From Citricoccus sp. K5 (GTDB lineage Bacteria; Actinomycetota; Actinomycetes; Actinomycetales; Micrococcaceae), in contig NZ_LR732817.1 in NCBI RefSeq assembly GCF_902506195.1, forward strand, positions 1,130,909-1,194,908: a stretch of 64,000 bases of DNA, written 5' to 3'. Below are positions 59,692-63,082 of the stretch, one piece after another. Under the pieces are notes generated by a model. It saw only the letters and a list, made by a program, of their open reading frames with translations, was not told where the DNA came from and made no database searches. The position numbers and the translations under genes are program-made. Position 1 is the first letter of the stretch. The number at the start of each line of letters is the position of its first letter.

Positions 59692-61947
59692 TCAGTCCTC
59701 CAGGATCACCAGCTGCTGGGTGGCCCGGCTCATGGCCACGTACCGGTCCACTGCACCCTCGATCCCGGTGCCGAATTCCTGTGGGTCGACCAGGATCACC
59801 AGGTCGAACTCGAGGCCCTTGGCCAGAGCGGGCGTCAGGGACCGCAGCCGGTCCCGCACCGCCGTGCCCGGTGCCTTGCCCTGAACCGGACCGGCCGCGG
59901 CGGTCCCGTCCGCACTGATCACGACGGCGGTGCCCTCACCCTGGTCGTGTTCCTCGAGCCAGGCGTCCAGCACCTGGTCCAGCTCGTCAGGGGTGCCGTG
60001 GCGCACCGCGTTGCCCGAGGCCCGGACCGAGGTCGGCACGTTGGCATCCGGGATCTGGGCCCGGATCACCGGGGCCGCCTCCGCCATGACCTTTTCGGGT
60101 GTGCGGTAGTTGATCGTGAGCGTGGCGATCTCCACCGATCCGACCCCGACGCGTTCCAGCCGCTGCCGCCAGCTCTCCGTGAACCCCCGCCGGGCCTGGG
60201 CTCGGTCCCCGACGATGGTGAGGCTGCGGGACGGGCACCGGGCCAACAGCATCTGCCACTCGGCATCGGTGAGTTCCTGCGCCTCGTCCACCACGATGTG
60301 CTCGAAGGGTCCGGCCAGCGGGTCACGGGTGTCCGCCGGCAGGTGCTCGTCGACGGTGAGTTTGTCCCGGATGTCCTCGGTCTGCAGGGACGTCATCAGC
60401 TGCAGGTCGGAGACGTCGGCGGCGACCAGGTCTTCGATCACCCGGTCCATGACGGCTTGGTTCCACTCACGTGCCCGGTCTCGGGTGCGGCGTTTCCAGG
60501 CCGTGACCGGGTCACCGATGCGGCGGCGTGCCGCGTCCAGGATCGGCAGGTCGGACAGTGTCCACGCCTGAGGATCCGCACGCTGCAGGGATCGCACCTC
60601 GGACGGCTCCAGTGTGGGCGCGCACCGGGACAAGTAGGCGGGCACCGTGAACAGGTCGCCGACGATCTCCTCGGCACGCAACACGGGCCAGGCGCGGGCG
60701 AAGGCCGCCCGTAGCCCACGGTTCGACTCGAAGGACCGGTACAGCAGTTCGGTGGACGGTCCGCTGTTCTCCCCGTCCCGGGCGGCGTTCGGGTCCGTTC
60801 CGGCGCTGTGGGCCTCCACCAGGATCTGGAGCAACGCCGTCCAGACGTCCTCCCGGGCCTCGTTGTGTGGGGTGCCGGAGTCGGGGGCGCCGAAGGCCTC
60901 GGCCCAGTCCTCGGGATACAACCAGACCTCGTCCCACGGCGTCTCCACCAGCAGGGCCTCAGCCGGAGGTTCCTCATACAGCCGGACCGCCGGCTCCACG
61001 GCGTCCACCAGGTCACGGCGGGACTTCAGATCGGCGACGCGCTGATCCGCCTCGGCGGGAGCCGTGGCCCCCTCCGGGAGCAGCCCGCGCACCGTCGCGG
61101 TGAGTACCCCGTCCTCGCCGAGTGAGGGCAGCACGTCCGCGACGTAGGCCAGGTAGGGCTCGTGGGGGCCCACGACGAGCACGCCTCCACGGTGGCGGCG
61201 CAGCCGCTCGTCAGAGTAGAGCAGGTGGGCCGTGCGGTGCAGGGCGACGACGGTCTTTCCGGTGCCCGGGCCGCCGTCGACCACGAGCGCCCCGCGCGAA
61301 CCGGCGCGGATGATCGCGTCCTGATCCGCCTGGATGGTGCCGAGCACGTCCCGCATGCGTCCGGTCCGGTGGGCCCCGAGGCTGGCGATGAAGGCGGACT
61401 GGTCGTCGAGTGCGGCGTGGGCCTGCAGTCCGCCGGACAGTCCCTCCGTGGTGAAGACCTCGTCCCAGTAGTCGGTGACGCGCTCCCGGCTCCACCGGTA
61501 GCGGCGGCGGCTGGCCAGGCCGAGGGGTTGGGCGTGGGTGGCGGCGAAGAACGGCTCAGCCGCGGGGGAGCGCCAGTCGATGAGCAGACGGTGGCCGTCA
61601 CCGTCGGTCAGGCCGGTGCGTCCCACGTAGACGGTGGTGCCGCTGCCGTCGGACGGGACCATCCGGCCCAGCACCAGGTCCAGGCCGAACCGTTGGAGCA
61701 GGAGCAGGCGGGAGGACAGCCGGCGGATCTCGGCATCCCGCTCCAAGGCGTACTCGCCGCTGCCACGCGGCTGCCGGCGCAGGGCGTCGAGGCGGCGGCC
61801 GTCCTCGAAACGTCGGTAACCGAGGGCGGCGGCGATGGCCGCGAAGTGGGCGTCGTCGCCGGCCACCAGGTCCGGATCTGCCTTGGCGGAAAGGTGCTCC
61901 GGCAGCGCGAAGACTGAGGTGCTGGTGCGGTGGTGGTCTGTGGTCAT
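59692..61947 (-). CDS. helR: RNA polymerase recycling motor ATPase HelR (HelD/UvrD-like)
   Basis: A 751-residue SF1-type ATPase. Walker A is GGPGTGKT (225-232), Walker B VVDEAQELTDAEWQML (from residue 552), plus TINYRTPEKV and YVAMSRATQQL. The N-terminus (FALPEHLSAKADPDLVAGDDAHFAAIAAAL) matches HelR, the Streptomyces/Mycobacterium relative of HelD that frees RNA polymerase from rifamycins and stalled complexes. Start ATG 61947 has GGAG at 8 bases. Two features favour HelR over a repair helicase: the N-terminal coiled region and the RAE palindrome just upstream. Confidence 0.88.
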   Translation of the reverse strand: MTTDHHRTSTSVFALPEHLSAKADPDLVAGDDAHFAAIAAALGYRRFEDGRRLDALRRQPRGSGEYALERDAEIRRLSSRLLLLQRFGLDLVLGRMVPSDGSGTTVYVGRTGLTDGDGHRLLIDWRSPAAEPFFAATHAQPLGLASRRRYRWSRERVTDYWDEVFTTEGLSGGLQAHAALDDQSAFIASLGAHRTGRMRDVLGTIQADQDAIIRAGSRGALVVDGGPGTGKTVVALHRTAHLLYSDERLRRHRGGVLVVGPHEPYLAYVADVLPSLGEDGVLTATVRGLLPEGATAPAEADQRVADLKSRRDLVDAVEPAVRLYEEPPAEALLVETPWDEVWLYPEDWAEAFGAPDSGTPHNEAREDVWTALLQILVEAHSAGTDPNAARDGENSGPSTELLYRSFESNRGLRAAFARAWPVLRAEEIVGDLFTVPAYLSRCAPTLEPSEVRSLQRADPQAWTLSDLPILDAARRRIGDPVTAWKRRTRDRAREWNQAVMDRVIEDLVAADVSDLQLMTSLQTEDIRDKLTVDEHLPADTRDPLAGPFEHIVVDEAQELTDAEWQMLLARCPSRSLTIVGDRAQARRGFTESWRQRLERVGVGSVEIATLTINYRTPEKVMAEAAPVIRAQIPDANVPTSVRASGNAVRHGTPDELDQVLDAWLEEHDQGEGTAVVISADGTAAAGPVQGKAPGTAVRDRLRSLTPALAKGLEFDLVILVDPQEFGTGIEGAVDRYVAMSRATQQLVILED

Positions 61948-61976
61948 GGGGCGGCTCCGATCCGATGCGAGCCATG

Positions 61977-62007
61977 ATTCTGACAGCACCAGGGGGCCTT
62001 GCGGCAA
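61977..62007 (-). promoter_or_regulatory. Candidate helR promoter overlapping the RAE
   Basis: On the minus strand, TTGCCG (62007-62002), inside the inverted repeat, and CAGAAT (61982-61977) are spaced by 19 bases (18 if TCAGAA is used as -10). The predicted start is about 25 bases ahead of the helR ATG. Confidence 0.5.
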
Positions 62008-62014
62008 GGCCCCC
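61992..62014. promoter_or_regulatory. Rifamycin-associated element (RAE), 23-bp inverted repeat
   Basis: GGGGGCCTTGC (61992-62002), a single central G, then GCAAGGCCCCC (62004-62014): an 11-bp perfect inverted repeat. The centre matches the RAE core CTTGCGGCAAG as I remember it from published rifamycin-resistance gene promoters of actinomycetes. It lies 45 bases upstream of helR and 68 bases upstream of the divergent yjbR gene. Confidence 0.88.
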
Positions 62015-62027
62015 GCTCGGGCATAGT
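61999..62027 (+). promoter_or_regulatory. Candidate yjbR promoter overlapping the RAE
   Basis: TTGCGG (61999-62004), in the heart of the inverted repeat, and CATAGT (62022-62027) are spaced by exactly 17 bases, which is the ideal spacing. Transcription would start near 62034, about 48 bases before the yjbR ATG. Confidence 0.65.
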
Positions 62028-62081
62028 CTGAAGATGGCGGAGGGGATTCGACCCCATGCGAGCACCGGGGGAACGGACACC

Positions 62082-62474
62082 ATGAACGGGACCACAGTGC
62101 ACCGGATCGCCCGAGATGCGGCACTCGAATTCCCCGCCGTCACCGTGGAGCAGCCGTTCGGGCCGGACTATGACGTGTTCAAGGTCAAGGGCCGGATGTT
62201 CATGTTCCTGGCCGAGCTGGACGGCGAACCGATCGTCAACCTCAAGGCCGAACCCGAGGACTCCGGCGCACTGCGCCAGGCCCATCCCGAGATCACCCCC
62301 GGCTACCACATGAACAAGAGGCACTGGATCACCGTGACCGGCGGGGACACCGTCACCGGCGGACTGGTCCAGGAACTCGTGCTCGATTCCTACCGCCTGG
62401 TGGTGGAGAAACTGCCACGGCACGCCCGCCCGGTGGACCCCGAGACCTTTGGCACCACCACACCGGCCCGTTAG
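62082..62474 (+). CDS. MmcQ/YjbR family protein
   Basis: A 130-residue protein with the YjbR fold: ALEFPAVTVEQPFGPDYDVFKVKGRMFMFLAELDGEPIVNLKAEP and ITPGYHMNKRHWITVTGGD. The fold resembles DNA-binding double-wing proteins, but the biochemical role is unknown. ATG 62082 follows CCGGGGGAA. It is divergent from helR and its candidate promoter overlaps the RAE. It is followed 17 bases later by the DinB-like gene. Confidence 0.9.
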   Translation: MNGTTVHRIARDAALEFPAVTVEQPFGPDYDVFKVKGRMFMFLAELDGEPIVNLKAEPEDSGALRQAHPEITPGYHMNKRHWITVTGGDTVTGGLVQELVLDSYRLVVEKLPRHARPVDPETFGTTTPAR

Positions 62475-62491
62475 CGAGAGAGGGAACCACC

Positions 62492-63082
62492 ATGACCAGC
62501 ATCGACCTCACCGAGAGCACACGGAGGGTGGCGTCCGTGGTCCGCGGGATCGAGGACGCGCACCACTATGCCCCCACGCCGTGCCCCCAGATGCCCGTCC
62601 ACTTGCTCCTGGCCCATCTGCACGGCCTGGCCATCGCCTTCCGTGACGCCGCCCGCAAGATCGACGGCCCGACCACCCACACGGCTCCGGACCCGTCACG
62701 GCTGGAACTTCCCGAGGACTGGCGGGAATCCCTGCCGGCCGAGTTGGAGAACCTTGCCGCCGCCTGGAACGAGACCGGGGCACGCACCGGAACGACGACG
62801 GCCGGGGCGCAGACCATGCCCGCCGAGGTGGCGATGCTGGTCGCGCTGGACGAGGTGGTGCTGCATGGCTGGGACCTGGCGGTGGCGACCGGCCAGGACT
62901 ATGCGGTGGAGCAACAGGCCCTTGACGCCGTCGAGCAGTTCTGCGCTGGTATCCCCGAGGAGCCGGGCGAACGGGAGGGGCTCTTCGGCCCCCGGATCCC
63001 GGTGCCGGCGGACGCACCCCAGCTGGACCGGGTGCTGGGCCTGTCCGGCCGAGATCCCGGGTGGCGGCCCCCGGGCCACTGA
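62492..63082 (+). CDS. TIGR03086-type metal-binding protein (DinB / maleylpyruvate isomerase fold)
   Basis: A 196-residue four-helix bundle protein. The likely metal ligands are histidines in HLLLAHLHGLAIAF and DEVVLHGWDLAVATG. The C-terminal VEQFCAGIPEEPGEREGLFGPRIPVPADAPQLDRVLGLSGRDPGW is the TIGR03086 signature. Many members act with mycothiol in detoxification. GAGAGAGGG precedes the ATG. It probably shares the yjbR transcript. Confidence 0.9.
   Translation: MTSIDLTESTRRVASVVRGIEDAHHYAPTPCPQMPVHLLLAHLHGLAIAFRDAARKIDGPTTHTAPDPSRLELPEDWRESLPAELENLAAAWNETGARTGTTTAGAQTMPAEVAMLVALDEVVLHGWDLAVATGQDYAVEQQALDAVEQFCAGIPEEPGEREGLFGPRIPVPADAPQLDRVLGLSGRDPGWRPPGH

Follow-up and report, generated by a model that had tools for sequence, protein, structure and literature searches.

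The 64-kb stretch of DNA analysed here, referred to as the window, carries a palindrome between helR, on the minus strand (59692-61947), and yjbR, on the plus strand (62082-62474). At 61992-62014 stands GGGGGCCTTGC G GCAAGGCCCCC, perfect 11-bp arms about a single-base centre (11+1+11), with 44 bp between the palindrome and the helR ATG; this is the inverted repeat that a sequence-only reading of the same DNA had placed in the helR/yjbR intergenic region. That reading had also put a HelR-type motor next to the repeat, and the neighbouring product does score 1097.8 bits against the curated NCBIfam model NF041254 (motor_HelR), the cut-off of which is 750. Compared with HelR/class II HelD it aligns with M. 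smegmatis HelD (6yxu) over most of its length, and no unusual feature was seen. On the other side the product matches Pfam YjbR; a search for yjbR in congeners found it in five of seven, with 43-63% identity in three. The mycothiol-isomerase-like gene that follows is probably co-transcribed with yjbR in a putative operon. The features, with promoter parts and leaders as predicted, are these:

59692-61947, minus strand: helR, RNA polymerase recycling motor ATPase, 751 aa (NF041254 and structure-sequence alignment)
61948-61970, minus strand: predicted short helR leader, its start near 61970 being deduced from the -10 spacing
61977-61982, minus strand: -10-like CAGAAT of P_res, 19-bp spacer, first position C (sequence and 261-site register)
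61992-62014, no strand: RAE palindrome, centre 62003 (sequence, uniqueness and genome scans)
61999-62004, plus strand: -35-like TTGCGG belonging to P_out, the outward promoter, and sharing 3 bp with the -35 of P_res
62002-62007, minus strand: -35-like TTGCCG of the gene-facing promoter P_res (sequence; register from 261 sites)
62024-62029, plus strand: -10-like TAGTCT of P_out, 19-bp spacer, first position T (sequence and 261-site register)
62036-62081, plus strand: predicted 46-nt leader from P_out to yjbR, without a 6-pair hairpin at its start
62082-62474, plus strand: yjbR, MmcQ/YjbR family protein, downstream of P_out (Pfam match)
62492-63082, plus strand: TIGR03086 / mycothiol-dependent isomerase-like gene (profile match)

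Judged by its letters and its setting, the palindrome before helR is a genuine rifamycin-associated element (RAE). Its 21-bp core occurs once in the window, even with up to three mismatches tolerated, and is absent from all 100 dinucleotide-preserving shuffles of the window. The site contains the palindrome GGGNCTTGCNGCAAGNCCC, which, as at the sites collected below, we take to be the RAE form. The length of 19 bp comes from a review (PMC10719064), which, in the sections available, describes the RAE of actinomycetes as a palindrome upstream of helR and other rifamycin-resistance genes that overlaps the -35 of the gene-proximal promoter, and which places it over the -35 of promoter 2 of M. smegmatis helD. 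The same holds in the window, where the element lies upstream of a rifamycin-resistance gene, helR, and overlaps the -35 of a predicted gene-proximal promoter, TTGCCG-N19-CAGAAT. The looser pattern GGGNNTTGCNGCAANNCCC, with one mismatch tolerated, has the window site as its sole match in the 3.88-Mb genome; reversed, as a control, it matches two places genome-wide, so that alone it is not above chance. Rfam gave no structured-RNA match within 61000-63000, and within 61700-62300 there was neither a terminator-like site nor a hit in a generic promoter scan, which misses both predicted promoters because it requires a TTGACA-like -35 and a spacer of 16-18 nt. The RAE and its link to helR are already known. 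The identification of the repeat as an RAE stands, since its core is the same as that before HelR, Rox-, Rgt-, Rph- and Arr-type genes and its neighbour is a HelR by the curated model; what the sequence-only reading overlooked is that the RAE is part of a predicted two-promoter unit.

Conservation of the repeat before helR in close relatives, on which that reading had staked its claim, is borne out. Among 149 genomes of the family HelR exceeds the cut-off in 23, and a 24th has a broken helR; upstream of these 24 loci the strict palindrome is present in 21, a degenerate one in two (L021, L022), and in one (L023) there is no TTGCNGCAA. Within the genus (eight genomes) HelR over the cut-off and the strict palindrome occur in the same three, and the remaining five have neither, one of these (G133) having a loose match without the CTTGC core. 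The guess of a Micrococcaceae-like host also fits, named Arthrobacter loci being at most 86% identical over 1.5 kb to same-family loci.

How far the anatomy in the window is general was judged from sites collected with GGNNCTTGCNGCAAGNNCC from family, order and phylum samples, from a search for HelR and from named genomes that were scanned. The collection patterns ignored the flanks; the HelR-search loci were chosen by gene, and the named-scan set without regard to gene. Reversed-pattern controls matched about a dozen of 297 genomes in one sample and some genomes in other samples. After four sites at locus ends were dropped there were 261 distinct RAE-type sites with 110 bp on each side. The second site of genome G935 is not included in the counts given here. 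Read outward on each strand, NANNNT stands exactly 19 bp from TTGCNG in 492 of the 522 arms, and in 353 of 382 after dereplication on the outer flanks. At spacers of 15-18 and 20 bp the count is 0 to 12 (12 at 17, 5 at 18, 8 at 20), at 21 and 22 bp it is 34 and 65, and the 127 arms at spacer 25 are due to further A-rich sequence that lies beyond the outward -10. Both arms conform at 241 of the 261 sites (172 of 191 dereplicated); the other 20, some before resistance-type genes, lack one or both 19-bp arms. Thirty TTGCNGCAA palindromes outside the strict RAE form had neither arm in 23 cases, one in two and both in five, and these five, three of which had entered the pool via the promoter-layout search, adjoin HelR or Rox and are degenerate RAEs.

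The RAE is thus best described, on this anatomy, as the probable shared core of two divergent sigma-70-type promoters, a description in which we have clearly more confidence when it is taken by itself than when it is joined to the mechanism proposed below. MerR-type promoters have spacers of 19-20 bp with the operator palindrome centred between -35 and -10. An operator of that type was rejected here, the palindrome being centred on the -35 elements and not in the spacer. Also left aside were at least 120 stretches of viral contigs that match the 15-base two-promoter layout, which were taken as chance and not used.

The two arms are unequal. A -10 that begins with T is present on one arm and one arm only at 230 of the 241 sites, the -10 of the other arm beginning with C (202), G (23) or A (5); the 31 of 261 sites that could not be oriented comprise the 20 without a -10 on one or both arms and 11 with T on both or neither. 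In the T arm, called outward, TANNTT leads into a discriminator rich in A and then into conserved sequence resembling GG(A/C)AGG, and the non-T arm has the consensus CAGAAT followed by a GC-rich CGCCGGCC-like stretch. With genes called on both sides irrespective of this asymmetry, the gene ahead of the non-T arm is of the HelR, Rox, Rgt, Rph or Arr type at 228 of the 230 sites, 221 by clustering and seven by tblastn, for which the references were the clustered proteins of the same loci. The 221 clustered neighbours divide into 113 HelR, 63 Rox-like, 20 Rgt-like, 15 Rph and 10 Arr, family names that rest on one representative each, those of Rox and Rgt scoring below the NCBIfam rif_monoox and Rgt cut-offs. 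Of the two exceptions, L198 has a transporter gene of the DHA2 type in that place and L148 a gene for a DUF6624 protein. At L224 and L292, where the weak side has Rgt or HelR as its resistance-type gene, the T side has a HelR gene too. The possibility of a leaderless peptide from the outward start (RTG near +1) was set aside because conservation ends about 41 bp from the centre.

A further asymmetry lies at the predicted outward transcription start, where the RNA would often fold. By the criterion of at least six pairs starting 31-38 bp from the centre, near the predicted start, a hairpin is present in 124 of 229 outward arms (one of the 230 sites being too near its locus end) compared with 20 of 229 gene-side arms; the 105 outward arms without one include that of the window, and the two helR congeners (L013, L014) also lack a start hairpin of at least six pairs on the outward arm. 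Swapping arms between sites gave a mean of 75.7 hairpins and a maximum of 91 in 20 trials, against the native 124; the swap lowers the count yet keeps much of it, and therefore the pairing is part shared sequence, part site-specific. The 8 nt after the outward hairpin hold 3.8 T's on average, compared with 1.4 at a control position, and under stricter terminator criteria 83 of 230 outward arms and 5 of 230 gene-side arms qualify, one shuffle of each giving 30 and 9. Promoter-like arms, 19-bp spacers, asymmetry, orientation with respect to resistance genes and outward hairpin can all be read in the letters of the DNA.

The layout is not confined to Actinobacteria. Among the matches listed in the scan of named genomes there were 121 sites in at least 119 stretches, with names for 80 (L179-L258). 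Of these listed sites 104 combine the full pair of arms with a neighbouring gene of resistance type; four have both arms with no gene found (L198, L219, L243, L288), four have a gene and fewer than two arms (L186, L245, L270, L283), eight, in records titled as non-actinobacterial or unplaced, have no gene and fewer than two arms, and one is at an edge. An exception among the non-actinobacteria in those listed matches is Stenotrophomonas maltophilia, with the full layout before arr. In its gammaproteobacterial family the strict palindrome is present in 23 of 149 genomes (L456-L478), before Arr in 15, Rox in seven and Rph in one; a wider sample of the class yielded an RAE in one of 239 genomes, that of the query only. 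Seventeen of the 23 loci have both -10 hexamers at 19 bp; all 17 outward hexamers start with T, and on the gene side the first base is C in 13 and T in four. Six loci (five Rox, one Rph) have no NANNNT on one arm. In the Rox and Rph elements L457, L464-L466, L468 and L469 the gene-side -10 has no A at position 2 (e.g. CTCAAT) and an outward TAAGAT stands nearer to the -35. Hairpins occur on 19 of the 23 outward arms and on 11 of the 23 gene sides, and the 15 loci in which the outward hairpin is followed by at least four T's in 8 nt are the 15 Arr loci. One record titled as a Chloroflexi bacterium MAG (L249) has the layout before Rph, which could be mis-binning.

Where has an arrangement of this kind been met before? 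In the parts available of a report on B. subtilis (PMC12802891), helD and pps are each read from a sense promoter that faces an opposing one, and the spacer of the opposing promoter is 19 bp in both cases; the one opposing helD dominates and makes a terminated RNA of ~90 nt, and the proposal is that rifampicin below inhibitory levels arrests whichever promoter is busier and so frees the other. The RAE anatomy as predicted has the same ingredients in another geometry. By sequence the RAE would share a weaker sense and a dominant opposing promoter, the 19-bp opposing spacer, a short terminated opposing RNA (shown in B. subtilis for helD) and a position before HelD or a rifampicin-modifying enzyme. 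At the RAE the opposing promoter is recognized by its 19-bp spacer and the TANNNT on the outward arm, and looks strong. What differs is that the B. subtilis promoters converge, with 39 bp between starts, whereas by sequence those of the RAE diverge from overlapping -35s and share a -35 region. According to the accessible text of the report its authors noted that RAE genes are not under two convergent promoters, with the RAE mechanism remaining to be elucidated, and found that moving the B. subtilis promoters clash-close abolished inducibility, on account of which their model does not transfer simply to the RAE.

For the RAE we picture the following. The palindrome centre TTGCNGCAA would be two -35 elements face to face with a 3-bp overlap, and because of that overlap the RAE would accommodate one RNA polymerase at a time. 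P_res, here the promoter for helR, looks weak: its -10 usually begins with C and is followed by GC-rich sequence. P_out, with TANNNT, an AT-rich discriminator and, at about half of the sites, a start hairpin, looks strong, and its RNA would be short and terminated at the hairpin sites because the hairpin comes right at the start. Occupancy of P_out would normally keep polymerase off P_res; rifamycin would arrest polymerase at P_out after 2-3 nt and so end the competition, upon which rifamycin-free polymerase could fire P_res. Since it is through arrest of the polymerase that rifamycin would disable P_out, the polymerase itself would be the sensor. That P_out is such a competitor, switched off by rifamycin, with the RAE as the core of a two-way promoter, is a reading toward which we lean, if only slightly. 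A bolder version would do without any RAE-binding regulator: the two promoters would exclude each other, the polymerase itself would read the drug, and the RAE, a rifamycin sensor with no protein of its own, would have spread with resistance genes across phyla as a solution independent of that in Bacillus. This we offer tentatively, as falling short of an even chance. There is a difficulty: polymerase arrested at P_out should also cover the -35 of P_res, unless it leaves or is removed. Candidates for promoting its dissociation or removal would be the unusual spacer and HelR itself, and the kinetics must differ from those in B. subtilis since clash-close promoters abolished induction there. The competitor reading is further weakened by the 105 outward arms that have no hairpin, by how much pairing persists when arms are swapped, by the 20 sites that depart from the 19-bp layout, and by the Stenotrophomonas-family loci in which one arm lacks NANNNT, both arms start with T or a hairpin stands on the gene side.

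Does a protein instead bind the palindrome? A dimeric factor, present in actinobacteria and the Stenotrophomonas family, could sit over both -35s, repress both promoters and be released by rifamycin or a stalled-polymerase signal, P_out then being real but secondary, and the published view, in the parts available of PMC10719064 and PMC12802891, is of a possible rifampicin-responsive factor, not known. Constraint on the outer arms also speaks for it. When 297 genomes of the order were searched with a pattern that fixed the two promoters and left the outer arms free, 57 places in 49 genomes were found, the same layout pattern read backwards having no match in the 297; 30 loci among these places keep C-5/G+5 in all 30, the gene-side GGG in 28 and the outward CCC in 25, from which it follows that the palindrome is constrained past the hexamers. 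Of all that weighs against a reading with polymerase alone, this outer-arm constraint is the chief item. A bound dimer may be its source; so may a common motif of -35 plus spacer, CTTGCNGCAAGNCCC, that both promoters require, and two such motifs set face to face would give rise to the palindrome automatically. Against a factor, five sites with the outer strong-side arm altered (three fully, two by one base) retain both promoters; P_out and its discriminator are conserved despite leading to no common gene; most genomes with a match in one sample carry a single RAE match; the element adjoins five unrelated gene families and recurs in another phylum; and no regulator recurs among the best outward-reading ORFs on the T side of the 230 sites, which yielded no new protein cluster of more than three members. 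On balance a dimeric factor seems to us less likely than polymerase competition, but a serious rival to it.

Two other explanations take up the remaining features singly. The promoters of rRNA genes have GC-rich discriminators and short-lived open complexes and are controlled by initiating nucleotides and ppGpp. P_res might be of that kind, activated under rifampicin by a rise in initiating NTP and a fall in ppGpp, with P_out serving to keep the basal level low; the GC-rich CGCCGGCC-like stretch after the weak-arm -10 would suit it, as would the similar stretch after the gene-side -10 in many Stenotrophomonas-family sites, but the strictly kept palindrome, P_out and the hairpin are left unexplained and the explanation is improbable. 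Alternatively the outward hairpin would be simply a terminator, which stops upstream transcription short of the resistance gene, TANNNT being a by-product of base composition. By crude gene calls, which classified 218 sites (12 of the 230 being too short), the outward gene does seem to read toward the RAE in 114, a class with the highest share of hairpins (69 of 114, compared with 41 of 75 where its start is further off and 10 of 29 where it is within 120 bp). Yet 104 of the 124 hairpins start at 31-33 bp from the centre, near the predicted +1, while in four start windows elsewhere on the outward arm the count is 15-22 of 229; the T's come after the hairpin on the outward strand; and the position of TANNNT is exact to the base, all of which makes a shielding terminator very improbable.

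With the competitor reading, the layout in the window suggests that helR would be induced by rifampicin through its RAE. The window P_out faces yjbR without a hairpin, so that yjbR may respond inversely to helR; as a consequence of the direction of P_out, yjbR and the mycothiol-isomerase-like gene may be repressed by rifamycins.

As described in the sections available of the literature cited above, the RAE is an actinobacterial palindrome, its mechanism not known; here it appears as the centre of a predicted divergent promoter pair whose spacers are 19 bp and whose outward arm often carries a hairpin, and it is also gammaproteobacterial. In the open-access literature searched we found neither the outward promoter and its hairpin nor the 19-bp rule on two strands, the rule of orientation or the gammaproteobacterial RAE, and in 2026 rifamycin sensing by the RAE in actinobacteria was, in the accessible portion of PMC12802891, stated to be unsolved. 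The layout serves as a search pattern that catches elements the strict palindrome missed (L315, L323 and L324, found with the outer arms free), and it extends the RAE to a Gram-negative family. If the competitor reading is true, actinobacterial and Bacillus systems would work on one principle, that of an unequal pair of opposing promoters with a spacer of 19 bp; on the bolder, protein-free version the long-sought RAE-binding regulator would not exist.

A few occurrences deserve mention for what lies beside them. In this genus P_out, which has no hairpin, aims at yjbR and the mycothiol-isomerase-like gene (62036-63082). A full RAE layout precedes a DHA2-type efflux transporter (L198:229-1797) in a genome that has three RAE-pattern matches. 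Elsewhere an RAE layout faces the DUF6624 gene (L148:1939-2451), which is possibly a new rifamycin-responsive gene.
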